Of a stretch of DNA of 64,000 bases, positions 16,666 to 62,040 are shown piece after piece. Source of the DNA: Mya arenaria (lineage: Eukaryota > Mollusca > Bivalvia > Myida > Myidae). The notes under the pieces are model-generated. The model saw only the letters and a list, made by a program, of their open reading frames with translations. It was not told where the DNA came from and ran no database searches. A program made the position numbers and the translations under genes. Positions within the stretch are counted from its first letter, which is position 1. The number at the start of each line of letters is the position of its first letter. Where the stretch lies: assembly GCF_026914265.1 (NCBI RefSeq), contig NC_069126.1, positions 41,327,237 to 41,391,236 on the forward strand, given 5' to 3'.

Positions 16666-19600
16666 TCAAGCAGGGTCCTGTGTTGAGGGGATCTCAATGT
16701 CAGCATACTCCGTCGGCGTATTTGTTCTCCTTGCCGGAACTCTGGCGTTAGCTTCCTGTAGGAACGTGATGTCCAACTCGGCGTATGCTAGGCCGTCATC
16801 ATCACTTGGTTGCTGGAATATATAGCATTGTTCTACCAAATGAATTATTTGTAATAATAATTACCGAATACGGATACGGATCAATTAAGGTGTTCTTCAT
16901 ACTCTGACATTGCAACTCAATGTAGTTTGTTATCCTGCACGTCTTATATTTTCTGGTCAGACTACCTTGTAATTTTAGTATAATATATGCATCACATGAA
17001 AGATCTCGAAAAATACCTCGCAAGGTGAAGAGCGCTTACCTGTGTTTCAATTCTCTGTGTTGCCGCCTGCCTCTGCACGACTGCGTACTGGACTCCTTCC
17101 GTTTCCATGTGTAGCACACCATTATCCGACGCCGTTTCTGTTTTTTCAGATATCATTAATATAAATTTATTTATAATAAGTTTTTTTGGAGGGAAATAGT
17201 TAATTATGCTCGAATGAAGAGAACGAGAACGAACAGTTTAAAATTGAATATTATTCAAAATGACAATATTTGAAAAATAACGTGACTTTTATAACTTTTT
17301 TTATCAATAATAGACAACAAATAAACGTTTGTTATGTTGATTAAGACCTAGAACTCTGATACAAATGCATACATTATTCAATTGTTTTGGGAAACAAAAA
17401 AAAACTGATCATTTGAATATTGCATTAAATAAATGTATGTTGGCAGTTGCATTTACATTGTACAAAGATTTTTATATTGCATCAACATGTATGCCATTTT
17501 TTTATGAGTTTATAAAACTTGTTTGTGAATGTTTCATAATTATTGTTAATTTTATAGATGTTTATTAAATCAATTTAGAAGTTTCATGATTTTTGTACCC
17601 TTGTTAAGTATCTTACAGGACAAATATATACTACACTGTACATAACTCGTGTTTAACGGAAACAAATCAAAGGGAAACAACTTATACATCGGCCTTAGTG
17701 TTTTTTTCATAAATTTTCAATCAATCAAAATTTTGATATGTTTAGTTTTTTATTTGTGAAGAATCGTTACTTATTGCTGAAGGGCTAACACTTAGTTTGT
17801 TAGAACATATTTAAAGATTTCTTCGTGAAAAGAAACCACGAAAGCTTCGTTGACCCCCGCTCAAATACGTTAATTTCAAGTAAAAATTCAAAATTAACTC
17901 TTAACATATACTTGGCACATGATGGGATTTTCACGGGGATAAAAATAATTTAAACATGCACGTATATTTACCCTAAAATATAAAAACTTACCGCTGGGAT
18001 GTTCAACACTGAAAATAGAATGCAACAGGTATATCATTACTGTAATGAACATGCATGATTCGTTTAAGCTCTTACTTTGCAACTTTTAACAGATATGTCA
18101 AATTTTCATATTTGGAATCACTAATTTAAATTTACAATTGATACATACATTTCTATTGTGTTGACTCCGTTGTCCTTTCGTCCTTTAAGAAATATACATC
18201 CTATAAAGATAATTTTATATAAAACAAAGAACCAAATTAAGTTCTAAATAGTTGTACTTGTGGAGTATTGTATTTTGCAACTAGGTATGTTGATATACGG
18301 TACATAACATAAAATTTAACATCAAAGATAGTAGAACGATTAAAAAAGATATCAAATTTGTAAACTCGTACGAAACAAATCACTCAAAATATATATTTCC
18401 TATTCTATGCCTTCTCGTATTTGTAATTCAGTCGCCCTGAATATACCTTAATGCATTGAAATGTCAACTTAAACGAAACAGAAAACTGGAAGAATGTCGG
18501 TCTAACGACCATTAGTCAATGCAGTAGTGTTATTAAAAGAGGTCGTTCTCTATTTTTTGACCCCTTCAAAACTGAACGTTTTTCGTATTGTGCAGGAAAG
18601 TGCGTTATACTAGTGTTAGTATCTCAATCATTTTGGTCATAACACCACTTGTAATATAAAACATAAAATGGTGAAATATGTGCATTATATATTTTTTCTT
18701 TAAGATAAATATTATGTTTCGTAGCTTTATTTCTTTATTTGAGAATTTGCATGTTTGCATTTTAAAGTGTTTCTTTTATCATTGTCCATGATGTAATATA
18801 GTATCTGAATGCGTTGTGTGTTAACGGGAAATTGCTGAATAATTATATTTGCTTAAAAACGCATATTCGTATCAAACTAGGTCCGTGATAAAATAAATGA
18901 TAAAAATGTGGCAAAACAGCGTATCGATGGTCAGTGCTCAATAGTTTTATATGATTAATGTAACAAGCGTTCATATAAGTCGACGGTGATATCAATAAAA
19001 TGATACACAAAAAGTCTTGCTCTCGATATTACAGCCGTTTTATTTATCATTATACAACCTCTTATGGATAAGAATGTAGTTTACTTGATGAGAGTATTAA
19101 GATAAAGATACACATCCTTACTTCCGATTGCAAACAAGATGCAGAGTCCACAGAAAATGGCTGCCCCAATAAGTACATTGTTTACTAGGAATCGAAAGGT
19201 TGAAAACAATGTTTGAATGTCCTTTTCATGGGATGGACTACCTGCAATAAAAAAATTTCCAATGAGATTGCAATATCTTTGAAAAAACTAATTAAAGCCA
19301 TTTCATGCATTATAAGCTTAATAAATATCTGAATATTTGATTACAAACCCTTTGTCACCGAGCTTAAAACTTTTATTGCCTTTTTCTCTGAGTTCATTTT
19401 TTTGCAAAATAATATCCGTTCATCGTCGCCGCCATAATTTAATGTTAACAGGCATTCAACTGTATTGTTACAAGTCTTTATAACAGTGCTTGTTTCATCT
19501 TCCCACCAAAACGTATAATGCCCGATAGCATTGCACTCATCCAACACAGTACATTTTACGACCACTGTTGTATCCGGAGGTAAATTAACAGGTGATGTCG

Positions 19601-22600
19601 TGTTTAAATACAGAGTCGTACCACCTGAAGTGTAGTGTAGGCATTGTTGAAATAAAAACATTAAAACTGATCAATGAAGAGGAGTAAATAACAGTTAGGA
19701 TTAATTTTGTGATATCTGCTACTTCCTGTTGGGTAAATGGGTAAAACACTCTGTTGAAAACAAATAATAATATATAGATATATTCCGCAAGACGAATCTT
19801 TCGGCAAAACAAATGCATCATTAGAACGGAGATAGCAGTCTTGGTTTGATAGTAAATGAGACCGAAAGTCGACAACATAAATAAGATCGAGTACGTACCC
19901 GAAAAGGATACAGTATAGTTTTTAGTTTATTTGGATGATAAATGATCGCATCTTGTGGAACATGTAATGGTTCCCCCCAGCCATGCTTTTAGTCACTTTG
20001 TAAATTCCTTTGGAAACAAAACTGTGACCCCCATGTTTACCATAAGTCCATTTGTTTATACCAATATGTCTTAAATCATCGATGTTGCTCGACCATTCAA
20101 TGACGCAAGATGGATTGGATTCATTCGTTTCACAAGAATTGTTTATGAAACAGATACTATCGTTGTATTCTTGTTGTACCCTTATATTACTGTTTTAGTT
20201 TACAAGTCATAAACACTAAGAAGAAAAACAATTTATTATGTATCCACCTATGCTAAAAACATTTACTTCGAGAAGGATAGGTATATTCTGTGTGCTAGGC
20301 CTTATTTCAATCTCCTTTTTACCGTCATTTAGTACGCATACTTTAAACATTAAATAATCTTGTTAAACTTACATTTGACACTGATGCTTTTGCATATGGA
20401 ATGATCTGCTATTCCAAAGTCGTCAATACTTTTCCTGGTGCAACACATTACTGTTCCACTCCACAGTTTGTAAGTCGTTGTTACCTTAGCTGTGCTTGTA
20501 AAAGTATGAGAAGATCCATTAAACAAATCAGTTTGTTGAACATCAGATAGCAAAACATTGCCAATATGTATTTCTATTACCGGAGCCGGGAAAGCATTCC
20601 GCACTTCACAGATTGTTGTCGCGCTTTCACCGTCAAGAAATTCAGGAACTGTTAGAACGGGTCGGCTACCTTTCTCTGGAGATAAAACAATGATTTAACA
20701 TCATCCAATATTATACACGATCAAACAATATTATTATTCACAAGGATAACGAATTATATCTTAATAAAATGTATATTCTACTTCCTTACCTACGTTACAT
20801 AGAATGCCGTGTACTTCGTAAGGTGTTTCAATGGCTGCATTTGAAACCTGACACGTCACATTCCGTCTCAACAGTCCAGCCATTTGTTGATGAACCTTAC
20901 TGAATACGTAAGACCCATTGTTCTTTTCGCTTTTAGCAAGAACAAATAAATCCTGTCCCAGTAAAAGTGCCACTTGTACAGGTTCTGTTCCATTTTCAGT
21001 CTGACAATATACGTCGGAATCACCATACACATAAATACATTCTGTTGTTTTAAAATCAGCGAATTGCTTTTATTATATCGAGACATTATTGTCCTAGTTG
21101 TACTGATATAACTCCTTTCTATTCCAAACTAACACATTAAAACAAAACCAATATTCAAAAGTCAGAATACTCGGTGAAATAAAAGCTAGGTACCTGGAAT
21201 AAGAAGCTGCACATAATCCGTGTTGGCACCAAAATTACAATATAAATTATACATCCCTTCATGGCTTTTTTTAAAATTAAATATAGTCAATATGTACAAA
21301 TATTCAGAGATCATTTTCTCTTCGTAAGAACCTTCTCGAAACCATATTTCATGAACATTTTTCTTCCATGTTCGTCTAGTGCATGGTTTATGCCGTAGAG
21401 AATAGTCAGACGGAAAAAATCCAAGCTTTACGTCCGCGCCGCGTACAACCGGGTTTAGAATCACGAGGGCTCCACATTGTCCAACAATTTCTGTAAATAA
21501 GCGGAATTATCAGATTAAAATGATGTTTTTGCTTTGTATTATTGAAACAACACATGGGCTGGCCTGATAATAAAATAAGACAAAACACATTCAATTATGT
21601 AAGGAGGCTTTAAGATTAAAATCAAACTAACAACCAACGAGGAAACAAAGATCAACTTGCACACTTTATATCTAAATAATTAAGTGTTTATCAATAAATT
21701 TGGTTAACAACTTGAAATGGACTCCGATATTTACCTTTCATATTTAAAAATATTAAGCTTGATCTTATTGTTGCATTTGTTGAACATCTGGCGTAGATCT
21801 CAGATCTGTTGTATTCAACAGACGCGTTCCATTTCAAAGAGAATGAACCGTCCTCATAATATATTTTAACATGTACCCCTTTCATTGTTTGAAATTGTGT
21901 GCTGCCTTCTATTCGGAATTTCCATTCTACTTCACACTCCCAAGGGTAGAACGGTGTTGCTTTCAGTGTAACCTCTCTGTTCACAAACGCTGGCCCTACC
22001 ACTGATACGGTTCCGTAATTGTTCCTGGCTAAACAGATATACCCTAACAGAACTGAAAAAAAGTAGTAAACAAAAAAGTGCAAAATGATTGCGAGTACAC
22101 ATATCACTCTTGATAAGCGTATTTGACTCGTAAAACTAAAATCAAGTATTTGTATGGATGCATACGTAGGGCGATCAGTTCTAGTTGCAACTAAATCCAT
22201 AAGAGCTTTAATGAAAAAAACTGTAAAAGATAATTAATATTTATTTTGATGATGCTACATTTAGTATCTAGAAGAAGATATGGCATAGATTTCAATTATA
22301 ACATACATGTGTATACACTTAGGGTAGGAACGCTGCAGCATATGTGTTTATAATTTGAAACGATGTAATTATTTTCAATTATTTTCATTAGTTTAATGTT
22401 TACATTATTTGAGAATATGTTTTGTAAACTCTAAATGATTGATTGATCGTCGGAGCAAGCAAGCGTGTAAGTCCTTCTTAGCTTTGCAGATTGTACCCAA
22501 TATGATCTAGCTTACTTAGATTGCAACGTCTTTTCTTCAAGCTAGGGACCAAATTATGACGTCATATCTGTTAAGTTATAAAACTGGAAGTCTTAGCGAT

Positions 22601-23500
22601 TAGATGTAGAACATTTTGGACGCCAATAGGCTATTCCATTCTCTTGAAATGAGTGTTATAATCTAATCGGTAAAACACGTTATTGGTGTCTATCTTGTTA
22701 ATGTTTTTAAACCTTAAACCATCCGTAGTGTAAACAATATGTTGTTCCTTATTTAGAATAAAATATATCGCTGCTACGTAGTTTATGCTTGTAAACGTCG
22801 ATGACTTTATATATTTTGTTCAGTAGTTGAAATATGTCTGCTTTATTTCAGTGCATTTTGTAAAACACTATACTAGTGTTATTCATCTAGTAAAATCTTT
22901 ATAAGCATGATAAAATACACTGGTCAAATTAGAAAGCAAGAAAGTTATTATAATTGCTTAAAAAAGAAAGATATTAAATATCAATAAATGGCAAAGTGAT
23001 CAAGCTTAATAGCTTAATATAAGTATTGATACAAATGAAATTATAATTTATGAAATGTCTTTTTCACACAAAAGGTCATCTCAGTATGAGCAATTTACGC
23101 CAGATACGTGGGTTTGTTGTAGTTCTTGAAAAGGAAATGTACATGAAGCTAATAATGGTATTTAGGTGAAAATGAGTCAATGATGAATGTGACACAAAAA
23201 AACTCTGCTTTAGCATACTGTGTGAACAAGAGCATTTTTGCACTTTAGGGTTTTGGCATTTCGAAAGAAGAAGTAGAAGATACTGTTGAAGAAGCAGCAT
23301 TAGCAGCAAAAGTAGGGGCAGTACCTGCACCAGCAGCAGAAAGCTCAGTAGCAGAGGAAATAGCATAAAAAAAATCGTTAAAGTAATAACACTAACTGAA
23401 ATTAAACATCTGAAACACAACCGAGCAATTGTCATGTAACTTACTTACTAGTTAATCGCACGGCGAATTGAACACCCTTTAATATCCATTGGTGTTGCAT
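16666..23500 (-). CDS. Receptor A: five-Ig transmembrane receptor with ITIM/ITSM tail
   Basis: Exons, 5' to 3': 23500-23449, 22052-21735, 21490-21194, 21041-20790, 20675-20373, 19624-19349, 19241-19122, 18200-18149, 18008-17992 (17 nt), 17137-17040, 16812-16666. Sum 1932 nt, 643 aa, no internal stop. Exons 1-2 encode the signal peptide (...GVQFAVRLTILLGYICLA). Five phase 1-1 exons each encode an Ig-like domain with paired Cys and N-glycosylation sites. One exon encodes the membrane helix (NVLIGAAIFCGLCILFAIG, ~518-538), followed by basic RCIFLKGRK. The tail has V-Q-Y580-A-V-V, L-A-Y605-A-E-L (ITIM consensus) and T-E-Y631-A-D-I (ITSM consensus). Known biology: phosphorylated ITIM/ITSM recruit SH2 phosphatases such as SHP; an inhibitory role here is inference. 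A fifth-position Ig exon (D5) is decayed and presumed skipped. Exon 4 appears to use a cryptic acceptor. Ligand unknown. Confidence 0.85.
19900..20190 (-). pseudogene. Decayed D5 Ig exon within receptor A
   Basis: The minus strand reads SCETNESNPSC...IEW and later GIYKVTK, matching receptor B's intact exon 32832-32512. The copy has lost its normal acceptor and start, and has one extra G in GCTGGGGGG (B has five Gs), shifting the frame before the second Cys. Flanking exons are both phase 1, so skipping it keeps receptor A in frame. Confidence 0.7.
23266..23345 (-). repeat. Degenerate AGC/AGA triplet repeat in intron 1 of A
   Basis: AGAAGTAGAAGATACTGTTG, then GCAGCATTAGCAGC and CCAGCAGCAGA. 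Comparable triplet tracts lie at the same place in loci B, C, D and E. The Leu-rich 119-aa minus ORF here is this repeat. Confidence 0.7.
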
Positions 23501-25450: not shown

Positions 25451-25734
25451 TGTATGTAGGCTTAATCATAATAATTTCAACTTTCGCGGATGTTTAAAGG
25501 CCCGCATACTGCTTTTCATCCAATCAACATTTGCTGGGTCAGATCTTGCTTCAGCCAATGAGGTTTTATTCCAAGCCAATTAAATGAAATGTTCTTACTC
25601 CGCCAGTTCTGAATCATTAAGATTTACCTTCATGTCATATAACTATGAATGATATAACACTAAAACGAAAGGGAAAAAAAGTAATTAAATGATTAAATAA
25701 AAAAAACTAATCCTCAACCAAGGCCAAATATTAA

Positions 25735-26950
25735 TGCAATCCAAGATCCCTCTGATGGCGAACTCTGCCTAGATGATGCTAGTAAAGCTGAAATACTCAA
25801 TACCCACTTTAAAAATCAATCTTTATTAGATGATACCGGCCACATTGTTCCGCCAGCCAGTAATCATAACAGTAACCGCAAAATTGACAATATCACAGTG
25901 CTACCAAATGAGATAACTGACATTATATCATCATTGCCTGTTAATAAAGCCTCAGGACCCGATGGCATAAGCAATCGAATCCTAAAAGAATATTCTAACG
26001 CGTTAGCTCGCCCGTTGTGCTCCCTATTTAATATGTCTCTCTCAATCGGTAGATTTCCAAAATTATGGAAAGATGCTAATGTGTGTGCAGTTTTCAAAAA
26101 GGGTGATTCCACACTTCCTGTTAACTATCGTCCTATATCCCTACTTAATACAATGGAAAAGGTGTTTGAAAGGGCAATATATAAACACTTCTTTAACCAC
26201 CTTCGTGACATAAACTTTTTTACCCCATTCCAGTCAGGCTTTCGGCCAGGCGATTCTACTGTTAATCAGCTTGCATACCTTTATAACACATTTTGTAAGG
26301 CATTAGATGATGGCCTAGAAGTTAGAGCAGTATTCTTTGATATCAGTAAGGCATCATACGTGCATGGAATGAACTTCCACAGAATATGCGGGATTGTCGT
26401 TCAATTGCATCCTTTAAATATGCACTTCGTAGTCGATTGCCAGTCTGCCCGCTTTACTATTATTACGGTAACCGCCGATTACAAGCACTTCACACTCGAC
26501 TGCGTACTAGTTGCAGTGGTCTTAACTATCACCTTTATTGTAAAAATATTATCAGCTCTCCTCTTTGCGAGTGTGGTGAAGTTGAAAGTAGTACTCACTA
26601 TTTTATGCATTGTCCTTTATATACCGACTCTCGACAAACTTTCTTTCGTGATATGTCAATTATCACAGAAATTAACATTGGTTTCATTCTCCATGGCAAT
26701 CCAACCCTAAACAACGAGAACAACTCCAAAATATTTGATACTGTTCATAAATTCATACAAGACTCGAAACGTTTCTGATCATAACCTGACTTACAATGTG
26801 TTTCCCCAATATGGTATGTACCCAACTTCTTTTCTTCCTTCATATCTGTCCACACCCTACTTATATATCCTTTATACTGTCACTTGTGCTTATTTTGTAT
26901 CTATTATGTATCATGTTTGAACTATTGAATCCATATCTAAAAAATAAAAC
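25735..26950 (+). mobile_element. Non-LTR retrotransposon fragment, internally deleted RT
   Basis: The plus strand first reads the N-terminal reverse transcriptase region: NKASGPDGISNRILKEYSN, then VCAVFKKGD, NYRPISLLNTMEKVFERAI, FQSGFRPGDSTVNQLA and AVFFDISKA (palm motif A). At about 26348 it jumps to the C-terminal region in another frame: IIRAWNELPQNMRDCRSIAS, RLQALHTRLRTSC and a Cys-His stretch CECGEVESSTHYFMHC. The catalytic YADD segment and everything between is deleted, so it cannot be active. The motifs fit a Jockey/CR1-like LINE. It sits between receptors A and B and lacks a 5' end. Confidence 0.9.
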
Positions 26951-28519: not shown

Positions 28520-31500
28520 TTATATAGCATGAATGTAGTTTGTGTCCGGTGCGATGGTCCGACGACCACTGTGGGCTGACGGGGTATCTACATAGTCGTA
28601 GTGGCTGACATTTTCGTTTGAACGGTCCTGGATTCCGTCCATATCCAATAGTGGCGGTGCGTTTTCGTTTTCGATTGCATTTGCAGACACTCCTCCCTTC
28701 AAATAACTTTATTATTATCATTTACAGTATTGGTGACACTCTTTTTAAACGAATACTGAGAAACATGATATTATTATTCCAAGACACAAACAAAAACTAA
28801 TTATCTAAGAAATGTATAATATATATATAATGGTTACGCTGATGGTAGCTGAGGATGTAGCGTACCTCGTACAATCACTAACAACCCTCAGTGGCTTCTA
28901 ACACACGATATCACACGTTTTGTATGAAACCGCTTCGCTCTCGAGTGGTATAAAGCTACTGAAGGTTTCAGTTACGAAAAATGTATAAAGTGACCCCAAC
29001 CCTGACATTTAAATGCTTTACACAAATCGTAAAATATAATACAAAATCACATGTTTTTGAATACGTGTATTGAAGCTGATCCCTCATAGATTGAACGATT
29101 TGACAACTTTTTTAATTTTTTATCTTGGAACGAGGTAATTTTTGCAAAAACTCAATGGAAACCAGTTGATATATAAATTAGATCGCATATTTTTATATTT
29201 AAGTTCAAAATTTGATGTTTTATGCATTAGCCATAAAACATTTATTTTCGAACAGAAATATGAAAATCTACGATCTGTTTTTTTCAGCAACCTGATATTA
29301 TTGGTTTGTAGATATTTACGCAAAAAATTGCTCTTTCCAAGACAAAAAAATAAAATGTAAAATTGGTCTAGAGTGCAGCTTTAAATAAGAGTTTCGTTTT
29401 TTAAGCATTAAACTGGTTTTGAATAACGATGTCTTACACGTCTGGCAACATAAATAATAAATCATATCGGGAGCTGAAACATTATATGGTTCTTGATAAC
29501 GAAGACTTCACATTTGTTGGCTATAAGTTAAGGATATCTTACTAAATGTCGAAGCGTGGTTGTCTCAATATTAGACTGAATTTCATCGTACACATGTGAA
29601 CTTCGCTCTTCAGGTCGTCTTCGAACCGTTTCAAAAACTGTGTCAAAAAGAAAAAGGTTTTCATCAATCATGTAATTACTGTGTTCCTGGGATTAAAATC
29701 AAAATGAAATGTTTACAGACTCCAAAACACTCGAAGACATTCTTACACTCATCTGAATGCCATTGCACTCATGTGAACGTCAACAGTTTATGTGTTTTAT
29801 TTTTTGTGCAAACGATCAGCGAATTTAACCGATGTCAACAATATTCAAGTATAACATTAAAACCAATGAAAATTATTCTTCTGAATGCATTGATAATTGA
29901 CCCAAGGTTCATTGATAAACATTAACGTTATATTCATATAAGTGTGCATTTCTGCACAATTTGTCTTTTATCTTAATTCTCTTAAGTGTTTACTTTAGAG
30001 TTTTTGTCTGCTAAACATGTCTCAGCAGCTTCCAATTAAAACATCAATCCAGTGTACTTGCATGGATCTTACATGCATATGTATCTCAAATGGTTGTACT
30101 TTCTCAAGCTTCAATCATGGTTGTTCGTATTCAGAGACAGGTTGTGCTGAATTAAGCAGTGAGGTAGCAAGCGTCCATTGATAGATAAACATAATCAACA
30201 TTTTAAATTTCTCGAGGTTGACACATTAAACTGAATGAATTTCCGAATGTCAGCCTTTGCAAATTTATGTGCCGCTTGTTACTATAATCACAGAAAATCA
30301 ATTAACATTTTATTACTTTGATCCAAACCTAGGATTAGCAGGAAACAAATGACATCGAAAGCGTAATATTTCACAATTGTATTCACTGTCTTAATTCTTG
30401 TGGTTTTGGGTTACATAAACACAACACAATATTTTAATTTTGTATCAATGAGCTTATGATTGGCAGCTGAAACCTTAAAAGATTTTCAATTGTATTTATG
30501 ATATTTTTTTATATAATTCATTTAAATATGTTTTATGTATATTTAATTCATTAAGATTTGTTTTCGTAATCAATTTGGAATGTCTATGAGTGTGACGTAT
30601 GTTACATATTTTGTAGATACTAAACTTGTATATAACACTTTTTAAACCAAAACAAATCAATAGAAAGGTACCTTATGATATATATCACCAGGGAACATGA
30701 TGATATTTACAAAGGTTTTTAAAAAAATTATTTAGGCTTGTATGTATAGTAAACAAGAAATGATAACTTACCGCCTTGATTTTCAGTACTAAAAAAGAAC
30801 GCAACAAATATTTTGTTTAGTTCAAGGAGAAATGTACTTAAACTGCCTTATCGGAAAAAACTGTCCGGAATGAGTTGCAAAATCTATCAAAAATTTAAAT
30901 CAATCCAACTTTACAACTTGATAGCAGTTATGTGAAATTTTAAATATATAATTTAAACTTGCAATTGATACGTACATTTCTATTGTGTTGACTGCGTTGT
31001 CCGTTCGTCGTTTAAGAAATATACATCCTATAAAAGATTTATATATATTATATATACTAAATCTAGATCTCAATAGCTGTTTTGAGGAGTCTACGTATCT
31101 TATTGTATTTTGCAACTAGATACGTTGTAATACGGTGCATAACATAACATTGAACAACAAATAAAGCAGAACAATTAAAAAGGTATCATCAAATTGTTAA
31201 CTTAATGATTTTTCACACAACACGTGTTTATTTCTAACCGTTTACTCCAGTCGACCCTTTCAAAACTTCCCATTTTGCGTATTGTACAGAAAAGTGCTTT
31301 TTACTTAATTCAGTATCTATATCATTTTGACCTTTGAAACACTTGCAATATTAAATACAATGGTGAAATATGGGCATCTTATATTTTGTGTTCAAGATTA
31401 ATATTATGTTTGGAATGCATTGTGTTTAAATGGTAAATCGCTGAATAAATATATGGCATAAAGACATGTTCGTATGAAACAGAGTGCTTAACTTTGGAAA

Positions 31501-34500: not shown

Positions 34501-34635
34501 GCAATAAAATAAGTTGATGTAGTAATAACACTTATTGAAGTTTAACATATAAAACAAAAATAATCTAAATGTATCTTACGAACCAGTAAAGCGCACTAGA
34601 AATTGAACACCCCTTATAATCCATGGTGGTAGCAT
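28520..34635 (-). pseudogene. Receptor B: hybrid Ig receptor (A-type TM, C-type tail), probably non-functional
   Basis: Exons, 5' to 3': 34635-34584, 33900-33457 (fusion of the first and third Ig exons), 33348-33046, 32832-32512, 32231-31956, 31848-31729, 31027-30976, 30788-30772 (17 nt), 29637-29543, 28696-28520. Sum 1857 nt, divisible by three, but codon TAA at 33775-33773 replaces the Glu found in A and C, and the preceding Trp is Leu. An ~1-kb deletion joins ...EDGSFIL to LYCQTENG in frame, removing the rest of domain 1, all of domain 2 and the start of domain 3. It is the only locus with an intact D5 exon. The membrane helix (VLIGAAVICGFCILFVIG), basic exon and 17-nt exon are A-type; the tail is C-type: HVYDEI, S-H-Y-D-Y-V (fits ITIM) and terminal NYIHAI. 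Start-downstream expression cannot be excluded. Confidence 0.8.
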
Positions 34636-43970: not shown

Positions 43971-44059
<89 letters not shown>

Positions 44060-47000: not shown

Positions 47001-48781
47001 AATTCATATGCTAACACTGTTTGTATTAAGAATGAATTTATCAAATGTTTACCATTTGTGATATATCTATACTAGGATAGCTAATTTGGTCTTTTTATTG
47101 TACGTCATATGTATACTGCTGATAATTTTAATTCTTTTGCAGTCATCGTTTGTTCGATGTTCAAGGGCTATCATCGTTTGAAAGAAGGCCGATATTTTCC
47201 ATCGTAAATAAGACCCTGTGGACATCACAATTTGAGTTTTAGGGCTAAGAAATCAGTTTTCGACAAAACGTCAAACTTTAATTTAAATATTAATTGATAT
47301 TTGTTGAAACACGAACTAAGTTGAATGTTTAGAATAGTGAAACTGAGCATGCGTGCATTCATTTAATACAGATATTGGTTCATATGTCAAAGGTGACTGG
47401 TATTATTTTAGATATATTCTTAGTTGTCCTCAACAAGGAAGTGTTTCTATTTATGAGCCCTTACACTTTGACAAGTATAAGGCATAATAGGGGAGTACCT
47501 AAAAAGTGAATCTCGCCTTCGCCATCTCCTATTTTTAAAAACATTGACAGTAGTTATTTAAGTTTTATTTTGAACTCTCGCTTCAGTCTATTTCAGCCAA
47601 AATCCAGAGGGCCAAACAGAACCTGTGGGCTCACGTCGTTTAAGAAATAAAATTTACAAATTTGAAAGAAGAGAGTCATTTATGGATGCATTTAACTGTA
47701 CATAACAATATCTGCAATTGTTGACGAAAAGGGTTTGTGTGATTTCCAATCGTAATCCAACCATTTTATGTAAACCAATGGACGTGACATTTGACTCATC
47801 TACTTGCTTTCATGGAGTTTGTTTGAAGAAACTAGCTAATTACACGCTTTCGATTTCTTGCAATTGTAATCTAGATAATGTTCACATTGAGTTTGAAGCT
47901 ATCTCCCTACATAATCATGGACTAAGAACACTGTTCTATAATAACCAGTTTGAAACATAATAATGTATAACCTTCTTTTTTTAATTTATACGTTTCTTAA
48001 AATAATTGCAAACAGCAACAATAACATTGTTGTTTTATACACAATACAACAAGGAACACAAAAAACAAGCTTTTCTATTACATTTGAATGTTATTATATG
48101 AACATCAAAGAAACCATCACTCATAGCATGTTTACAATGTAGGTAAACAATATTTTGAACCTTTTGTTAGAATAAGATATCTCAGTGCTACTTTGTTCAT
48201 GCTTGCAAACGTCGATGAATAAAACCAGTGTGTTCAGTAGTTGAAACATAACTGCCTTATTTTGAAGTACACTTGGTTTTGAACATTGAAAGGTTCGCAT
48301 CATCTTCAAAAGTGGTTAGATTTTCACTAGTACACATAACTAAATATTCTATATGATCGTGGCGATCCATTATTGGTCTAGATAGAGCATGTCATAAATG
48401 TCAAAGATTCGTTACCGGACTAGATTTGATTGTTTTCAGCTATTAAAGGAAAATCTTATAAAATACACTGGTCAAATGATTATAATTGCTAAAATATTAC
48501 ATATATTGAGTATCGATGTAGCAAAGTGATCAAGCTTATAGCTTATACATATTGATCAGTAGATATTGTTGTAGAAGTAGCGGTAGCAGCAGTAGCAGTT
48601 GTACCTGCAACAGCAGCGCATTCATCAGTAGCAGTAGAAGAAGAAGTAACATTAGTTGTTGCTGTAATAACACTAACTGAAGTTTATCATCTCAAACAAA
48701 TACGAGCAATTATCACATATCCTACGTACCAGTAACGCGCACGGCAAATTGAACCCCCTTTGTTATCCATTGTGGTATCAT
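40598..48781 (-). CDS. Receptor C: five-Ig transmembrane receptor with tyrosine-rich tail
   Basis: Exons, 5' to 3': 48781-48730, 45480-45163, 44927-44631, 44419-44114, 43929-43627, 42724-42443, 42159-42025, 41491-41385, 40756-40598. Sum 1959 nt, 652 aa, frame open throughout, all GT-AG. Exons 1-2 encode the signal peptide (GVQFAVRVTVMFGYICLA); five phase 1-1 Ig-like exons follow with conserved Cys pairs and many N-glycosylation sites. The membrane helix (~536-558, ALFAVSGTVIGVLATTF...LLC) ends in RRCK and differs from that of A and B. Tail tyrosines: H-V-Y585-D-V-V, A-L-Y598-N-L, N-P-Y627-D-Y-V and terminal NYIHAI. These are YxxV-type SH2-docking candidates but not canonical ITIMs, as position -2 is H or N. 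Intron 1 holds a foldback element and a spacer-module copy; introns carry (AT)n. D5 is only a remnant. Ligand and signalling partner unknown. Confidence 0.85.
40886..41006. repeat. (AT)n microsatellite
   Basis: About 120 bases of AT interrupted once by GCGAGAGAGAG, inside the last intron of receptor C. The Ile-Tyr ORF here is the repeat. Confidence 0.95.
41815..41868. repeat. (GT)n/(GC)n microsatellite
   Basis: GTGT run with a GCGCGCGC core, in an intron of receptor C. Alternating purine-pyrimidine sequence, potentially Z-forming. Confidence 0.9.
42965..43110 (-). pseudogene. Remnant of D5 Ig exon in receptor C
   Basis: The minus strand retains the 3' end of the exon (GTTTCAAACTGCAATACAAT then TTCTG with donor GTACGCACC) and an internal HLRYVHRN stretch comparable to DLRYIAL in receptor B, but the middle is missing. 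D5 is thus lost independently in A and C. Confidence 0.5.
43972..44064. repeat. (TA)n microsatellite in receptor C intron 4
   Basis: About 90 bases of TA between Ig exons 44419-44114 and 43929-43627. Receptors A and B have ordinary AT-rich sequence at this position. Confidence 0.95.
46548..46680. repeat. Foldback element with ~60-bp arms
   Basis: The left arm ATTACACACC...GGCATTATAAGGACCGGC...CCCCGAGG is inverted as CCTTCGGGG...GCCGGTCCTTATAATGCC...GGTGTGTTAT around a ~10-base loop (GTATATTTCA). Arms match at most positions. Probably a foldback MITE; it lies in intron 1 of receptor C. Confidence 0.85.
46801..46917. repeat. Second inverted repeat with TGACGTCA sites
   Basis: CCAGTTTTATGACGTCAGCG(GTCCA) at the left is inverted at 46891-46917 as TGGACCGTTGACGTCATAAA(AACTGG). 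A further copy of the ATGACGTCAGCGGTCCATAT unit lies directly after the left one. TGACGT[CA] is the CRE consensus for CREB/ATF factors. Likely part of the same composite element as 46548-46680. Confidence 0.75.
47480..48110 (+). other. Spacer module part 2, copy inside receptor C intron 1
   Basis: The longest open reading is 47718-47960 on the plus strand, with C-V-I-S-N, DSSTCFHGVCLKKLANYTLS and SCNCNLDNVHIEFEAIS. It corresponds to 27400-27560, 39340-39480 and (inverted) 59310-59430. Four cysteines and one N-glycosylation site suggest an extracellular fragment, but there is no signal peptide and no clear splice sites. Confidence 0.3.
48555..48660 (-). repeat. AGC/AGT triplet repeat in intron 1 of C
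   Basis: GTAGAAGTAGCGGTAGCAGC, AGCAGTTGTACCTGCAACAG, then GTAGCAGTAGAAGAAG. Positional counterpart of 23266-23345. Confidence 0.75.
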
Positions 48782-51100: not shown

Positions 51101-51116
51101 ACGTCAGCCATATGCG

Positions 51117-52245
51117 TGAAAAACGAATAACTTAGTCAGTGGTAGCGCAGAGGTAATGCAGTGGTAATGCTGTGATAATGCAGTGGTAGTGCAGTTGTAG
51201 TGCAGTGGTAATGCAGTAGTAGTGCAGTGGTGAGGTAATGCAGTGGTAGTGCAGTTGTAATGCAGTGGTATGCTGTGATAATGCAATCGTGGTGCAGTGA
51301 TAATGCAGTGGTAGTGCAGTTGTGAGGTAATGTTGTGGAAGTGCAGTGGTAATGCAGTGATAATGCAGTGATAGTGCAGTGGTGAGGTAATGTTGTGGTA
51401 GTGCAGTGGTAATGCCGTGGTAGTGCAATGGTAATACAGTGGCAATGCAGAGGTAGTGCAGTGTTGAGGCAATGCAGTGGTAGTGCAGTGGTAGTGCCGT
51501 GGTATTGCAGTGGTAATACAGTGGTAATGCATTGGTAATGCAATGGTAGTGCAGTGGTAATACAGTGGCAGTGCAGTAGAAATGCAGTGGTAGTGCAGTG
51601 ATAATGCTGTGATAATGCAGTGATAATGCAGTGGTAGCGCAGTGGTGAGGTAATGCATTGCTGGTGCAGTGGTAATCCAGTGGTAATGCTGTGGTAGTGC
51701 AGTGGTAATGCAGTGGTAGTGCAGTGGTAATGTTGTGGTAAAACAGTGGTAGAGTAGTTGTAGTGCAGTGGTAGTGTAGTAGTAGTGCAGTGGTAGTGCA
51801 GTGATAGTGCAGTGGTAATGCAGTGGTTCTGCACTGATAGTGCAGTGGTAGTGCATTGGTATTGCAGTAGTAGTGCAATGGTAGTGCAGTAGTTGTCCAG
51901 TAGTAATGTTGTGATAATGCAGTGGTAGTACAGTGGTAGTGCAGTGGTAGTGCAATGTTAGTGCAGTGGAAGTGCAGTGGTAGTGCAATGGTAGTGAAGT
52001 GGTAGTGCAGTAGTAGTGCAGTGGTAATGCTGGGATAATGCAGTGGTAGTGCAGTGGTATTGCAGTGGTAATGCAGTGGTACTGCAATTGTTGTGCTGTG
52101 GTAGTGCAGTGGTTATGCAGTGGTAGTGCAATTGTTGTGCTGTGGTAGTGCAGTGGTAATGCAGTGGTAGTGCAGTGGTAATGCAGTGGTAATACAGGGG
52201 TAGTGCAGTGGTAGTGCAGTGGTAGAGCAGAAGTAATACGATGTC
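51117..52245. repeat. 11-bp minisatellite, ~100 copies
   Basis: Unit GCAGTGGTAGT or GCAGTGGTAAT repeated for over 1.1 kb with scattered substitutions. Because 11 is not a multiple of three, each minus-strand frame reads the same 11-residue peptide (HYHCTTTALPL), giving overlapping ORFs of 327, 248 and 232 aa. These are a property of the repeat; I see no start context, splice site or conservation supporting a protein. Confidence 0.9.
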
Positions 52246-53116
52246 AGCAAAATAAACAAACTACTCAATCGAGTCCTAATTACGCCATTGCAAAACATAA
52301 AATTAAATGGATGGAGTTATTAAAATAGGCTTATAATAGTGACATTAAACTCGGTTTATGTTTTAACTTATTTGCTGCTCAGCTTGTTTCTGTAGCTTTT
52401 CGCATAAATATTATTATGCACGGTTCATCACCAGCTTCCAGACAACTTTCTTTAAGTCAAAGCCGCTAAGAACAATGAATCGCATCCTTAAATTATATAT
52501 AACGACCGGCCATTTTTAGAAAATTTGTTTAGATATTATCTAAAACGCTTTAATGAGTAGATAAATAGTATTTATTATTATAAATCAGTTTTGTAGCCTT
52601 AAAAGTACGATATTTGGAATTTTCTATGTCTAGCTTCCTCATATTATTCTGATATCGTTTACAAAGAGTAAAGAAAAAATATTTTAAACGAGCTTTTTGG
52701 CTTTGAAATAATTATTTTTCGTTAACTTATTTCATATTTTAGTAATCAGCAAATAATGCCCTTACAAATGGTAGCAAAATTATGTTGGGTTACTAGGCAT
52801 AAAAATCATCATTTGTACAGCAGATATCTTAATATTGGATTGAAAGAAAGAGTGAGTGAAGAGTACTGGTATACTTTGAAATTCTTTGTTTTCAACATAC
52901 GTACACGAACATATTGCAATTTTTTCCTGAGTCATTTTGATTGCGGTGTGGAAAAAATGACGATGAAATATTTAAGAACAATCTTATCTAATTTCCTTTC
53001 TGAGATGAATACCAAGAAGAAAGAATATAGCGTCTGTCTGCGGATAAAGACTTCTTTCATATGTATAAAACGAACAATGAATTCAATTCAATGTCATGTT
53101 TAAAGTATTGCCATAG

Positions 53117-53158
53117 CTTTTCCGGCATTCCAGTTAAACAATTGTGGACAGAAAGAGA
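53117..53158 (+). promoter_or_regulatory. Conserved upstream block, locus D (inverted)
   Basis: CTTTTCCGGCATTCCAGTTA then AACAATTGTGGACAGAAAG is the reverse complement orientation of the blocks at 23646, 34797 and 48938, confirming that locus D is inverted including its 5' flank. Confidence 0.45.
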
Positions 53159-53371
53159 ATCCAACATTTATCTTTTCTAGTGGAAATTTTTGGGAAGGTC
53201 TGTTTTTATTTTCTTAAAAGTAAGTCGCAAATGTTACACAATTAATATTAATAAATAAATCAATTCACGGAGATATAAAGGATGCTTATATGTGCTAAAT
53301 ATGTCGTACTCTTTTTCGGTATAATAAATCTGTGAAATGCATCGTTTATTTGAAATATTAGACGAGAGTTA

Positions 53372-54035
<664 letters not shown>

Positions 54036-54654
54036 ACAAAAATTGAATATTTCTTCCTGCATGTATGATTCACGAATTATCGTTCTGATAATTTCTATGT
54101 TTCGATCTTAGCAAACGTTTCATTGCCATAACTTGTGTGCCCCTCTCGTAAGTTAATCGTCTGTTTTACTTCATAATGTATTCGTATTAAGGTCGAGATG
54201 TCTACATGTTACTTGCTTGCAATCTCTTTCAACTCGGTTTGGGTACATCTGTGCAGCCAGGAACAAGTATGGCACGTAATCAGTGGTAGGACCAACTTTT
54301 GTGAACAAGGAGGTAACACTGAAAGTGACACCGTTGCTGCCTTGGGGATGTGACGTAGAATGGATATACGTAATGGAAGGCGAACAGTTTAAAACAATGA
54401 ATTATGCACACTCTACAAGCTATTTGAAGGATTGGTCGTTCTTTTTAAAATGGAAGGCGTCAGTTCAATACAACAGACCTGATTTCTACGCCAGATGTAC
54501 AACAAACAAAACCATCAAAACAAGTCTGACATCTATAAATATGAAAGATGAAATATCGAAGACCGTTTTAAGGTGGTTGCCCAAATGTTGAAAATAAAAC
54601 GAAAAGGATTTTAAGCATGTGTTGTGTTTTGTTTCCTGTTATATCATTTTCTTT

Positions 54655-54880
54655 TAGCTCGATTGTATCGAAAGCTGACAGCTGGTTAACTCACGTTCAA
54701 GTCCGTTTCCTGAGCAGATACCAACACTGGTGTGTATTTTGAGAGGCTATGAGAAGTTACCCCTGGTTGGGATCGAACCCATTGTTTACATGTCATATTG
54801 TTTCACATTTGGGGTTTTAATCAATGAAGCCTACTTACACAACCAGGAAACCTTTTTTACCACTGGGCATGTCTATGTAG
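54655..54880 (-). mobile_element. tRNA-derived SINE
   Basis: The minus strand contains GGGTTCGATCCCAACC, a canonical tRNA B box, followed by GTTGGTATCTGCTC and GTTAACCAGCTGTCAGC with TTTCGATACAATCGAGC. It sits in the intron between the first and second Ig exons of locus D. Confidence 0.6.
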
Positions 54881-57800
54881 TTGCTATGGTACTTTGATTG
54901 GTTCTAGGCCTGTATTCACCCAACACCTACACTATCTGTTCGACTTTTTCGAAGTTGAATACAATAAAATTTTAAGCGATAATAAGCTAAAAATGTTCAA
55001 ATTAGTAGATCTGAATTAGCAGATGTCTAATTAATGATTTTCTATCAATTGACATTTTTTGTTTTAGAAACTTTACTAAACAATCACTTCGGAAAAAAAC
55101 AGCAATTGTTATTTTCAACTTTACTCTACAAGTTATTTGCGAATATGGATCCGTTACAAAAATGTATTATTTTGTTTGTAAAATTCACATTTATTAATAA
55201 GTTGTAATTTTCAGAAATTGTTGGAAAATGTGGAACTCTCGTGCCTCTTAGCCCGGTTTTTCGCGGCACGGACGTCAATCTTGGCTTTTTTCCTTCCGAT
55301 TATTATATACAACGATATATATTCACTGGACGAACATGGACGAAAATCATGCAGGATATACATTAACGAAAAGGTTCTTACGAAGAGAAAAGAGTTTCTA
55401 CATATTTGTACATATTGACTATATTTAACTTTAAAAATATAGAAGAAGGAACGCGATTCAGGTGGCAAGACGGATTCTGTGCAACTTCATGTTTTAGGTA
55501 CCTTGCTTTTACTTCACTTCATTTAATTCAACCGTGACTGCTAGTTTCCTGTGTTCTCTTCTCCCAAAGGTAAACGTCCTTTGGAATTTACTTATATATC
55601 GCTTTATCCTTCATTGAAGTGTTCTCACTTTTAACACTTTTAACAGGAATTAAATTAAAAACATCGAACATGTATGATAACAATTGTTTTCTCTAAACCA
55701 CGTTGCTACTTCTCAACAATTTCTTCACAACATTTCAGGTGGTCCAACTCTGTATTTGAACATGACATCACCTGTTTATTTATATTCGAATAATACATTG
55801 ATCGTCAAATGCTTTGTTGATGACTGCAATACCATAGGAAAATGGACGCTTCGCTGGTAAGAAGAAAATAACACTGAAATAAACACTTGCAAAAACACAG
55901 AGGATTGTCTATTAACACTGAATTATACGGCAGATAGCTAAAAGACTTATGCTTGCAGGGCATGGAAATCGGAAGAACTTCTGAGCAATTCATTGAAACG
56001 TAAAAATGTACATAAAGTTTCAAATATACATTTAAATGACACCAAAACAAGTCATTAATAACTCAGTCACAAATGAACACTGAACAGCTTATTTGTACCT
56101 GTCATCACTTATTTCTATATATTCCTTTATACTGTTTATTAAATTAAGCGTTCAGTTTGATTGAGAGAGACAGTTCTACGGTATCAGTGGAAAGATCCAC
56201 ACAATTAACGTATGTAGCTTGGATTTTTATAATATATAAATGACTCTTACGAATGACATGATATTGAGCTGTTTATTTTGATATTCGCGGATAACGTAAA
56301 GGTCCATGACATAAGTGGGATCACTGATTTTACAGTGTGAATATATTTATATATTTATCTTAAGCAAAATGCAACACTGCATATGCAAATCTAAATGAAG
56401 TTCTACCTTATCTGATTGTTGTTTCTACATCGTTTTGTGCATGAAGCACACACAATTTATTTTCAACCCTTTCAAAGTACCGTACTTGGCATTATTATGA
56501 ATATAAAGAAAATGCAGTTTATACATTAACAAATGGACGAAACAATATAGAGACAGAATCGTCCCTTCCAAACTGGATTTCCTGTTCCTGCAGAAGCAAC
56601 AACCAATGCTGCACTAGTTGTTTCCCAACAGTGGCATACGTCGGCCCTATTCGCCGTATCGGGAACAGTTATAGGTGTACTTGAAACAACGTTTACCGTG
56701 CTTCTATGTAGGCGATGCAAACCTTATGGTAAATGTCCATATACTTTTAATTGAAAACAAAATATGTTTGATCGATGAATATCTCGGTTACTGGTCACAA
56801 TTTAAATTGTTTATTGACACATCAAATTATTTTGCTTCATCAGTACTCAAGGTAAGCTATTTGTCATCGTCTGTTACCCTGTTGAAAATGTTTGACTCAG
56901 TAAAACAAAGGTAAATTCACGTGCATTTATCTGTGACAGAAGGCATGTGTTTGATAATCAAGAGCCGACTTTGAGAAATTCGTGTGATACTTCACTGCTA
57001 AAATCAGCACAACTCGTCTATGCAAACGGAAACTCAAAATGGATGCTTGAGGCAGAACAACCTTTTTGGATAAACATGTTAGGTACATCAGCAGGACATA
57101 AGATAGAAAGCAATCGAACTTGTTAAAACGACATTGCAAAACCAGTGTCATTAAATCGATACATCAATAAAAGCTACAGAAACATGTTCAGCAACCACAA
57201 ACTATACTCCAATCTTTGAAGTGTATAAGGATCAAACGTAAAATTATCACTGCACATAAATACACACACATTACATAAACATAACGTTAATGTTTATCAG
57301 TGAATGTTGGATCGATTGTGAATGCATCATGAGGAATGAACTGGAGTATTAACATATCTAATAATATCAAACTTTAATATTGGTGCCAACGGTTAATTTC
57401 GCATATCGTGTGTACATGAAAAGAAATACATAAACAATTTACGTTCACTTGAGTGCAATGGCGTCGGGATGATTTAAAAGATGTCTTCGTTTCTTTCCGA
57501 ATGCACATATTATTTTGTTTATAAATCCGACGCTAACTGGAACATCATGATAAATGACAAAATTTATATATTTGACACAGTTTGTGAAACGCTTATACGC
57601 CTAAGAAGACCTACAGCAAGAGAGCGAAGTACACATGTGTACGATGATGTTCAGTCTGATATTGAGACAACTGAGCTTCACAATCTGGTATGATTCTCAT
57701 TATACCCATCAAATGTCAAGTATTCTATACTTAACAACCATAAATATTGTTTCACCTCAATTTTTTTTGATGTTGCCAGCTGTGTAAGATAACGTTTAAA

Positions 57801-58239
57801 AACCGGTTAAATGCTTCAAATTGCAATTGATTCTTGTTTAATACACGTGAAATACATCTGATCTTGAACATTAGTGATCTTTTCCGATTACATATATACA
57901 TGTGACAAATTAATGAGTAGTTTCTGTTTGATATGAGTACGTCAACAACTAAAATACTTGATAATCTGATCTCTTAAGTTACTACAGAATAATTATCAAA
58001 TTACAAATAGTGTTGTTTTTAATGAATATTATATTTATCAAATAAAGCTTTATTCACATTTGAAGGGAGGTGTGTCTACACGAGCCATCGAACAAAGACG
58101 CACGACCACTATTGGATATGGAAGTCCGTTCAAATGAAAATGTCAGCCACTACGACTATGTGGCTACCCCATCCGCCCAATGTGACCGTCGGACAAACGC
58201 ACCGGATGCAAATTATATACATGCTGTATAACCGATTTA

Positions 58240-60338: not shown

Positions 60339-62040
60339 CTAAGGTGATTCAGTGTGGTACACAGGATCTCCTAAAGCAGGTTCCTGTGTTGTGAAGAACT
60401 CAATGTCAGCCATCTCCGTCGGCGTATTTTTTTTCCTTGCCCCAACTCTGGCGTTAGCTTCCTGTAGAAACGTGATGTTCAACTCGGCATCATATGTGGT
60501 TGATTGATTATACACATTGTATACATTATACTCCGTTACCTACGACATAATAAGCAAACATTAGTAGTCCATACAACGGATCATATAGGAAATAATCGTT
60601 AGTTTATGGAACTTACATGGCAATATATTTGGTAAAAAACACGTGTAGTCGATATCCTTGAATACATGATTTTTCAATTCTTAATGAAACATTGCATACC
60701 CTCCTTCCTGTTTTCAAATACGATGTCTCAATAATGACATTGAAACTCAATGTTGTTGGCTACTCTGCTCGTCTTATAATTTTTTATCAAGCTACTTTGT
60801 ACTTTTGGTATGACATTTGCATCACATTAAGAAACCTCGCAAAGTGAAGTTACCAGTATTTCGATCCCCAAGTCTGCCTGACTGCACGACTGCGTGCTGG
60901 ACTCCTTCAGTTGTTATGTATAGCTTGTTATTTTCCGACGAGGTGTATGTTGTCAGGTATAATTAATTGCTATTGTTTATAGAAGCTGATTTAGAGAAGA
61001 TATATAAGTATCTAGAGAAACAGAACCAATAGTATAAAACTGGACACAATTTCCAAATGTCAGTATTTGCACATTAATGTGGCTTTTATAACTTTTTCAT
61101 CAATAAAAGACAATAAATAAACATAAATTTATCATTTTGATAAAAAAATTTATTATTAGCCGGGATAACATCGAATGCAATATATTTCACAAATGTATTC
61201 ACTTTGATTATTCCATTATTTTGGGTTACAAAAACAAACCTGAATATTTAAAAATTGAATGTTAAATTGCATTAATATAATTCATTTGGATATGTTTTTA
61301 TATATAACTATTTGTTAATGTTTTGTAATTTATTTGGAATGGTTCATTAAAGAAATTCCCTAAGTGTGATGTTTTGACCCATTATTTTTCTTTAAAGTGC
61401 TAGTACAGTATCTTACAGGATACGAAGGTACAACACTGTATTTAACACGTGCTAAACAAAAGCAATTCAAAGGGAAGCAACATACATATCCATTAGGGCT
61501 TATGATGTTGTTTTTCTAATAATAGTAGTAGCAGCAGCAGCAATAGTAGCATGAATATCAGCAGCAGTAGTAGCACCAGCATCAAAATCAGAAGTAGAAG
61601 TAGAAGTATCATTAAAAGATAATGTTGCAGTTGTAGCAGCAGCAGCAATAATAACAGCAGTTGTAGCAGCACCCACACCAGTAGTACAATTGACAGTAGC
61701 TGTAGAAGTAACAATTGGAAGAAATTGTTGAATCAATAGCGTTTACTGACGTTTAATATCTTAAACAATAAAGAGCAATCGACCTGAATGCTACGTACCA
61801 TTTAAAGTGCACTGAAAAAAGAACATCTTTTATTATCCATTGTGGTAGCATTGCTTGCGAAACAGAAACTTTTTCATATTGATGAATACGACTGCTGTAG
61901 TTCGGTTAAACTTGTTGAGCATTTCTTTACAAAGGATAATTAACATTTCAAAAAAAGAGACATACAGCCCCTTATATCTTCAAGGGAGATGATAAATATT
62001 ATTCGCACCTTCGGTCCGCAATTTGTTTGGAAAACACTGA
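60339..62040 (-). pseudogene. Receptor E: A-type relic lacking ectodomain and all ITIM/ITSM tyrosines
   Basis: Present: upstream block ~62008-62040; exon-1 homolog ending near 61796 (M-L-P-Q-W-I-I-K-D-V, with an out-of-phase donor); intron triplet repeat 61520-61735; A-type tail exons at ~60950-60856 (TTEGVQHAVVQSG) and ~60510-60339 (AELNITFLQEANARV, NTPTEMADIEF). All Ig and membrane exons are gone: sequence matching A near 17600-17700 (61380-61490) is joined directly to the intron-1 triplet repeat, an internal deletion of about 5.5 kb relative to A. Each tyrosine motif of A is altered: VQYAVV to VQHAVV, LAYAEL to TYDAEL, TEYADI to TEMADI. The last exon reads open to a new stop 20 codons past TEMADI. 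No functional receptor can be made as laid out here. Confidence 0.75.
61520..61735 (-). repeat. AGC/AGT triplet repeat in locus E
   Basis: AGTAGCAGCAGCAGCAATAG and similar units; counterpart of the intron-1 triplet tracts in A, B and C. The Leu-rich and Ala/Thr-rich minus ORFs are the repeat. Confidence 0.85.

Follow-up and report, generated by a model that had tools for sequence, protein, structure and literature searches.

The window analysed here is a 64,000-nucleotide stretch of chromosome C5 of the bivalve Mya arenaria (positions 41,327,237–41,391,236), and it carries five related loci (A–E) that resemble genes for cell-surface receptors with immunoglobulin (Ig) domains. Exons were mapped in the window by splice sites and phase and rechecked with tblastn, which confirmed that D alone is on the plus strand, the other four loci being on the minus strand. 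Two types of tail cassette were distinguished: T1, with an immunoreceptor tyrosine-based inhibitory motif (ITIM) and switch motif (ITSM), and T2, with the motifs YDxV, YDYV and NYIHAI; TM1 and TM2 denote their respective membrane exons. Similar ectodomains are found on both types, and the comparisons below point to exchange between the recognition and signalling halves of these genes. An initial annotation of the sequence had described a paired-receptor-like cluster of five loci; all five are present, but the multigene family of type-I membrane receptors to which they belong is far larger, and the window holds a fragment of it.

Organisation of loci A–E

Locus C is the sole complete annotated gene among the five. 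Its exon 1 (48730–48781, minus strand), Ig1–Ig4 exons (43627–45480, made up of 45163–45480, 44631–44927, 44114–44419 and 43627–43929), Ig6 exon (42443–42724), TM2 transmembrane exon (42025–42159) and T2 tail exons (40598–41491, made up of 41385–41491 with HVYDVV and 40598–40756 with PYDYV and NYIHAI) were all mapped, and the Mya arenaria protein P0004 (LOC128234703) matches these nine exons at 100% identity. Leaving exon 1 aside, 634 codons are open, and Ig5 is degraded. The conserved upstream block was taken as exon 1, rather than a leucine-rich stretch, because the P0004 protein matches that block; the leucine-rich stretch (48605–48652 in C, 23325–23366 in A) did not fit in phase and was dropped, and the scan gave no other candidate. 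An inverted repeat, 81% self-complementary (46531–46693), lies inside the large intron of C.

Locus A (minus strand) is damaged yet could be translated, with 625 codons open apart from exon 1. That exon (23449–23500), which is conserved with B, C and E and is the same as exon 1 of P0004 and other members, supplies the start codon, the beginning of the signal peptide and a phase-1 donor. It is followed by Ig1 (21735–22052; assigned to Ig by inference) and Ig2 (21194–21490), both open and in phase 1-1, by a shortened Ig3 (20790–21041) in which the usual acceptor region is deleted and an in-frame cryptic acceptor remains, and by Ig4 (20373–20675), recognised above cut-off as Pfam C2-set_2. Ig5 (19925–20182) is a relic with frame gaps and a lost acceptor. 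Splice-site and phase mapping then placed Ig6 (19349–19624), the TM1 exon (19122–19241), two juxtamembrane exons (17992–18200, made up of 18149–18200 and 17992–18008), a tail exon with the ITIM pattern VQYAVV (17040–17137) and a final exon carrying LAYAEL (ITIM) and TEYADI (ITSM pattern) (16666–16812). The ITIM/ITSM ending predicted for A, with its stop codon at 16666, was therefore borne out. No match to A at ≥97% occurs among 56 fetched family proteins (numbered with the prefix P).

Locus B (minus strand) is a third form, in which an A-type membrane exon is joined to a C-type tail. Its exon 1 (34584–34635) was found as the conserved block with tblastn, and is followed by a broken exon (33457–33900) in which Ig1, carrying a stop, has been fused by deletion to Ig3. 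Downstream are Ig4 (33046–33348) and an intact Ig5 (32512–32832), together spanning 32512–33348 and matching Pfam C2-set_2 at 7e-8, and Ig6 (31956–32231), placed by splice sites and phase. The TM1 exon (31729–31848) and juxtamembrane exons (30976–31027 and 30772–30788), spanning 30772–31848 and found by both mapping and tblastn, are A-type, and the last two exons (29543–29637 and 28520–28696, spanning 28520–29637) are C-type and in frame; 452 codons are open from Ig4 onward. When 120 kb were added on each side of the window, giving 304 kb surveyed in total, a second copy with the same hybrid architecture, locus I, was found at window coordinates 162.9–170.8 kb, about 128 kb from B, with exon 1 and Ig1–Ig5 open, splice sites present and only Ig6 broken. 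The union of TM1 with a T2 tail is not a one-off, since locus I repeats the architecture of B.

The two remaining loci are more decayed. Locus D (54237–58231, plus strand) is a T2-type copy with stops in Ig1, Ig2 and Ig6, an open TM2 exon (56594–56728), an open first tail exon (T2a) and a frame gap in the second (T2b); neither mapping nor tblastn found an exon 1. Directly upstream, where the 5' block of D would be expected, the sequence is low-complexity and repetitive, in registers of 9 and 12 bp (53.3–54.1 kb), and a long satellite with an 11-bp register occupies 51.1–52.3 kb (within 51104–54111). Locus E (60375–61851, minus strand; mapping and tblastn) is a relic: exon 1 is frameshifted, the two T1 tail exons are decayed and have lost two of the three motif tyrosines (VQH, TEM), and no Ig exon was found at the locus.

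These maps modify several claims of the initial annotation. A 5' block with exon 1, said to be common to all five loci, is found at A, B, C and E but not at D; Ig exons are common to A, B, C and D but not to E. The assignment of E to the ITIM/ITSM type holds for a tail relic that has lost most of its motif tyrosines, and the YDYV/NYIHAI tails given to B, C and D are present, with the qualification that the membrane and juxtamembrane exons of B are A-type. Each mapped locus has one tail type, as far as its exons tell. In the window loci, the exons from Ig1 through the transmembrane exon are in phase 1 at both ends, so that halves could be swapped and exons skipped without a break in frame.

Exchange between recognition and signalling halves

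In tblastn searches, exon queries derived from C matched the exons of A at E-values down to 6e-55, a similarity far beyond chance. To call the ectodomains near-identical, as had been done, is nonetheless too strong, since protein identity between A and C is 72–84% over Ig1–Ig4 and 61% in Ig6. Outside the window, identity is 81–89% over Ig1–4 between loci L5 (T1) and L2 (T2), and 82–96% over Ig1–5 between the opposite-tail proteins P0013 and P0031.

Synonymous divergence (pS) was compared along the genes of eight cluster loci. Across 15 opposite-tail pairs, the ratio of pS in Ig6 to pS in Ig1–4 had a median of 1.65, versus 0.87 across 13 pairs with the same tail (Mann-Whitney p 1.4e-5; loci recur among the pairs, which are therefore not independent). 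For L5/L2, synonymous divergence was 0.10 in Ig1–4 versus 0.46 in Ig6 (Fisher 6e-9), and for A/C 0.16 versus 0.42 (Fisher 4e-5). At the DNA level, L5 and L2 are 92–94% identical across the 5' flank, exon 1, Ig1–Ig4 and, where aligned, the introns, after which only patches of 74% are found; the DNA of the same-tail pairs A/L5 and C/L2 can be aligned on through the tail and the 3' flank. The switch point varies, with P0013/P0031 still 96% identical in Ig5 and P0002/P0014 83% in Ig6. Divergence between opposite-tail genes thus tends to step up somewhere from Ig4 to Ig6, which shows that a 5' recognition block has moved between two 3' cassettes. As read from these sequences, cassette exchange is established, and we infer gene conversion or unequal crossing-over as its mechanism.

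Ectodomain trees and tails

The family-wide set for domain trees comprised 65 rows (29 T1, 24 T2, one mosaic and 11 without a tail), some tail labels being taken from the transmembrane exon only (for example P0023 and P0014). Trees of single domains required at least 13 tail changes for Ig1, 12 for each of Ig2, Ig3 and Ig4, 9 for Ig5 and 5 for Ig6; these were quick trees of about 100 columns, made without a shuffled control. One simple history for all exons, which the initial annotation had named as the outcome that would speak against it, was thus not found. A concatenated Ig1–4 tree was built from the 33 of 65 rows in which all four domains had ≥70 residues (L1 excluded), 27 of them with a known tail (16 T1 and 11 T2, with 6 lacking a tail). 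This tree required 9 tail changes, at least 8 of them forced by well-supported branches (shuffled mean 8.7).

A single tail clade on Ig1–4 appeared in none of 200 bootstrap trees, and the approximately unbiased (AU) test rejected one T1 clade with p 5.6e-42; within the window cluster alone (A, L5 and G versus C, L2 and L8), a T1 clade was likewise rejected (p 4.7e-6). Well-supported sisters with opposite tails were A/C (support 100/99), L5/L2, P0010/P0026, P0001/P0029, P0002/P0014 and P0013/P0031. Ectodomains and tails do not have a common history, and the tails are unlinked from the ectodomains that they accompany.

Tail motifs and selection

ITIM patterns were present in 21 of 23 T1 tails and ITSM patterns in 19 of 23. 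Of the T2 sequences, 13 of 18 had YDxV and 12 of 18 had YDYV; a T2 tail in frame is missing from three (P0014, P0017 and P0053). Motif content was compared with shuffled sequence for tails longer than 60 residues (21 of 23 T1 and 16 of 18 T2), bearing in mind that the tails are kin and not independent: ITIM was found in 20/21 and ITSM in 19/21 T1 tails versus shuffled means of 3.8 and 1.1, and YDxV in 13/16 and YDYV in 12/16 T2 tails versus 0.5 and 0.02. No match to the hemITAM pattern, a half form of the immunoreceptor tyrosine-based activation motif (ITAM), occurred in the 18 T2 sequences; a lone regular-expression match to ITAM itself (P0055) runs across the membrane segment and was dropped. 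Phosphorylated YDxV may resemble SH2 docking sites of the Nck and Crk type, and YDYV those of the Src type.

In ten pairwise comparisons, the ratio of nonsynonymous to synonymous change (dN/dS) of tail exons spanned 0.21–1.11, several values being 0.2–0.4, and that of ectodomain exons spanned 0.32–1.08. Among the low tail values were C/L2 (0.22 in T2a, 0.33 in T2b) and A/G (0.21 in the first T1 tail exon, T1a). This pattern is compatible with tails that have been retained and ectodomains under laxer or shifting constraint.

Extent of the family

The 304 kb surveyed hold 22 loci or fragments, consisting of eight T1 loci (L0, L1, L5, L7r, A, E, G and K, with L0 typed from its TM1 exon only, as the sequence stops before the tail, so that it could be a hybrid), nine T2 loci (L0b, L2, L3, L6, L8, L9, C, D and F), the hybrids B and I, and three without a tail (L4r, H and J). 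Fetched proteins cover B, C, L8 and I at ≥97% over several pieces, and P0017 matches one exon of L9. In the left flank, a segment of about 2.8 kb with Ig3, Ig4 and Ig5 exons is tandemly duplicated inside L6 (window coordinates -30264 to -25533).

Searches were extended to the genome (1.216 Gb, 18 contigs), with exon counts taken as lower bounds and tail-exon types hand-picked among the matches listed. The Ig4 exon gave at least 150 matches on seven contigs, the 150th at E 7e-37; those listed fall on C5 (69), C9 (60), C11 (6), C16 (6), C6 (4), C10 (3) and C7 (2), with 24 in the window cluster (41.00–41.90 Mb) and 50 at 74.84–75.86 Mb of C9. Tail searches returned at least 78 T1 last exons, at least 35 T2 last exons and at least 101 TM2 matches, two of which sit ≤0.3 kb from another. 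Among the matches listed, 10 of the 15 cluster bins contained both cassette types; C7 was left out of this count since its two types are about 61 Mb apart. A cluster at 10.60–10.82 Mb of C5 has exon scores close to those of the window cluster and may be a segmental duplication or a misplaced second haplotype. On C7, a dense array of I-set exons (59.06–59.35 Mb) is apparently a separate expansion of the immunoglobulin superfamily (IgSF). The 56 proteins returned correspond to 53 locus numbers, and isoforms of one annotated locus can differ by entire Ig exons (P0001/P0009, P0002/P0011 and P0045/P0046).

The family belongs to the IgSF. Pfam C2-set_2 was recognised in 25 of 40 members, and the scan lists only Ig families, although the locus C protein had no Pfam match at 1e-3. 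By domain, in some members, Ig4 and Ig5 matched C2-set and Ig6 a CD47-like V-set above cut-off, and Ig2 matched weakly. Profile alignment with hhalign did not demonstrate homology among the six Ig exons, except between Ig5 and its variant. A profile search of the PDB gave five matches, to cell adhesion molecule 4 (2e-5), transgelin-2 (0.007; not an Ig protein), a SIRP chain (0.07) and two Ig gamma-2A chains (0.07–0.08). All proteins returned by three protein searches were from Mya (54/54, 20/20 and 10/10), by a method that needs short exact words and similar length and may miss distant relatives. Within that reach, the family is apparently confined to Mya.

Repeats and other features of the window

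A reverse-transcriptase fragment (25697–26778), overlapped further on by a second open frame, lies between A and B and matches RVT_1 at E 9e-7, just under cut-off. Just upstream of B, positions 35793–36400 had no Pfam match but resemble a transposase relic; the annotated model P0048/LOC128235700 takes its first part from them (35895–36059), probably as an annotation artefact. Related minisatellite units occur at both window ends in opposite orientation (1–230 and 62360–63380), and a tandem repeat of about 87 bp lies at 5920–6589. Segments 581–780 and 15043–15255 are 72% identical and could belong to a further duplicated gene to the left of the cluster; the first contains a start that resembles a signal peptide (MATIRFGLILVAVVFSG).

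Discussion

As far as exon structure and sequence can tell, the Mya family behaves as a paired-receptor family. The initial annotation had likened the cluster to KIR, LILR and SIRP, and this likeness holds for its structural and evolutionary half: similar ectodomains are joined to different modules (six opposite-tail sister pairs, with a T1 clade rejected), the loci are clustered and homogenised by recombination (22 loci or fragments in 304 kb, with the divergence step in many, not all, opposite-tail pairs), and putatively inhibitory members are recognisable at the level of the ITIM motif. The activating half of the likeness is not supported by the motifs: no ITAM lies inside the tail in the 18 T2 sequences, and TM2 has no conserved charge for pairing with an ITAM adaptor. 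Among the closest parallels are CEACAM genes, for whose ITIM/ITAM pairs part of one report presents a synonymous-substitution argument for recombination between partners (PMC2832619). In CEACAM1/CEACAM3-type receptors, as in KIR, LILR and SIRP, similar Ig ectodomains stand on different tails in one cluster, and a mark of recombination is left in synonymous divergence. The Mya family differs from these vertebrate receptors in its T2 tail and TM2 segment, and no sequence homology to KIR, LILR, SIRP or CEACAM was found (protein searches returned only Mya, and the SIRP chain among the PDB profile matches scored 0.07).

Among invertebrates, the FcoR family of Botryllus, as described in part of PMC12065747, is similarly a large Ig family (53 loci) whose tails carry an ITIM or another tyrosine module. 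It differs in that this module is a hemITAM or core motif, swapped by alternative splicing inside a locus, and in having a sushi domain and a partner gene, Fester; the FcoR architecture given there (V-Ig, sushi, two C2-Ig, transmembrane segment and ITIM/hemITAM tail) is not that of the Mya proteins, as Pfam found no sushi domain in 40 members. Candidate allorecognition genes of the cnidarian Hydractinia (Alr family), cited in the same part of PMC12065747 as having ITIM and ITAM motifs, are likened to the Mya family by description only. In oyster, CgIgIT2 is an ITAM-bearing IgSF receptor with five Ig domains according to one section of PMC11999971, and an inhibitory IgIT is named by title in the reference list of that paper. 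With these mollusc IgSF receptors as precedent, the claim of a new example in a mollusc holds in part: T2, unlike IgIT2, has no ITAM, and the section describes no multigene exchange in oyster. No oyster protein was among the protein-search matches, and the comparison with IgIT and IgIT2 is by description. An open-access literature search, with some match lists covered in part, found no paper on this Mya receptor family.

The sequences show that genes with either 3' cassette have the 5' flank, exon 1 and Ig1–Ig4, sometimes more, in common; the cassettes are Ig6, TM1 and an ITIM/ITSM tail (T1) or Ig6, TM2 and a YDxV/YDYV/NYIHAI tail (T2), and a rarer hybrid of TM1 and a T2 tail occurs as well. 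We propose that gene conversion or unequal crossing-over keeps shifting this recognition block between cassettes as copies arise and decay. The receptors would sit on haemocyte membranes, where partners with opposite tails may sense the same or overlapping ligands and be similarly regulated. Ligand-bound T1 could recruit an SH2 tyrosine phosphatase and so damp the cell, and T2 could dock other SH2 proteins, of Src, Nck or Crk type, so that the cell responds in the opposite or in another way, for example by engulfment. Taken as a whole, from the two-halves family and exchange through paired sensing to T1 damping and another signal from T2, we consider this account reasonably probable; we are more confident of the cassette exchange within it, and much less so that T2 would activate.

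Several observations weigh against this account. Each of the eight T1 loci found in the 304 kb is damaged, incomplete or a relic, with the least damage in A; Ig6 is frameshifted in L5 and G, and G also has a GC donor. In several opposite-tail comparisons the divergence step is small or absent (A/F 1.05, F/G 1.23, L8/G 1.24 and L8/A 1.26). An ITAM was found inside the T2 tail in 0 of 18 sequences (three of them without an in-frame T2 tail), charges in TM2 are sporadic with no conserved charged residue, and a loose ITIM pattern fits 8 of the 18 T2 sequences, through SHYDYV or SHYENV. The dN/dS of tail exons is not uniformly low, Pfam does not recognise Ig1 and Ig3 as Ig domains, and equal-scoring distant matches (C9/C11; C6 at 11.8 and 13.9 Mb) could be uncollapsed haplotypes that inflate the counts. 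Opposite-tail sisters made up 6 of 10 cherries versus a shuffled mean of 5.0 (P 0.38), and tails along the chromosome, in the 17 of 22 loci used, formed 13 runs versus 9.5 (P 0.06, post hoc), which is suggestive at most. Neither an excess of opposite-tail sister pairs nor strict alternation of tails was retained as a result, and selection for matched pairs is not supported, because opposite-tail sisters are no commoner than chance.

A rival explanation is neutral birth and death, in which homology-driven recombination among tandem copies produces the mixing as a by-product, with no paired function; the tails could then be redundant, or adhesion could be the main role of the receptors. In its favour, many copies are broken or relics, tail types are spread over ectodomains as if at random, and dN/dS is 0.32–1.08 in ectodomain exons and 0.21–1.11 in tail exons. 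We regard this explanation as unlikely, given that the tyrosine motifs of the tails have been retained far above shuffled expectation, that dN/dS is low in the tail exons of several pairs (C/L2 and A/G) and that both tails coexist in two thirds of the cluster bins (10/15).

A role in allorecognition or histocompatibility, with the tails setting acceptance and rejection of self and foreign clam cells, including contagious cancer, appears to us quite doubtful. Bivalves are not known to fuse as colonies, which speaks against such a role, and term searches of clam cancer papers gave no passage on such genes. In its favour are the very large and diverse family with ITIM tails, as in Botryllus fuhc FcoR and the Hydractinia candidate genes (in the part of PMC12065747 dealing with them), and the transmissible cancer carried by Mya arenaria (described in part of PMC10663159).

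The idea that both tails are inhibitory or serve trafficking, with T2 tyrosines that are endocytic or ITIM-like and forms that differ in localisation rather than in the sign of the signal, agrees with the ITIM pattern in 8/18 T2 sequences and with the missing ITAM and conserved TM2 charge, but is improbable to much the same degree, since T2 ITIM matches in tails longer than 60 residues lie within the shuffled range (8/16 versus a mean of 4.3 and a maximum of 10), the tail of locus C misses the ITIM pattern, and YDxV/YDYV is the conserved core.

The account of two exchangeable halves with paired sensing could be carried further, to a lophotrochozoan counterpart of natural killer (NK)-type receptors, in which a recognition half present in at least 150 Ig4 copies reassorts with two (or three) signalling halves, the non-ITIM tail uses its own SH2-docking tyrosines with neither ITAM nor adaptor, and the receptors may judge foreign cells, contagious cancer cells included. 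We offer this extension as speculation and think it unlikely to hold in full.

The family is a real, large and apparently lineage-specific variant of a known receptor arrangement; within the sources compared, its scale, apparent restriction to Mya, non-ITAM second tail, hybrid form and clear exchange are new. If the two tails do signal in opposite directions, paired receptors would have evolved a further time, in molluscs and out of unrelated parts, in a family with at least 150 Ig4 exon matches and a non-ITAM signalling partner, and in a host species known for transmissible cancer. As recombination is legible in the genome, the matching of inhibitory and other receptors would here be directly testable.

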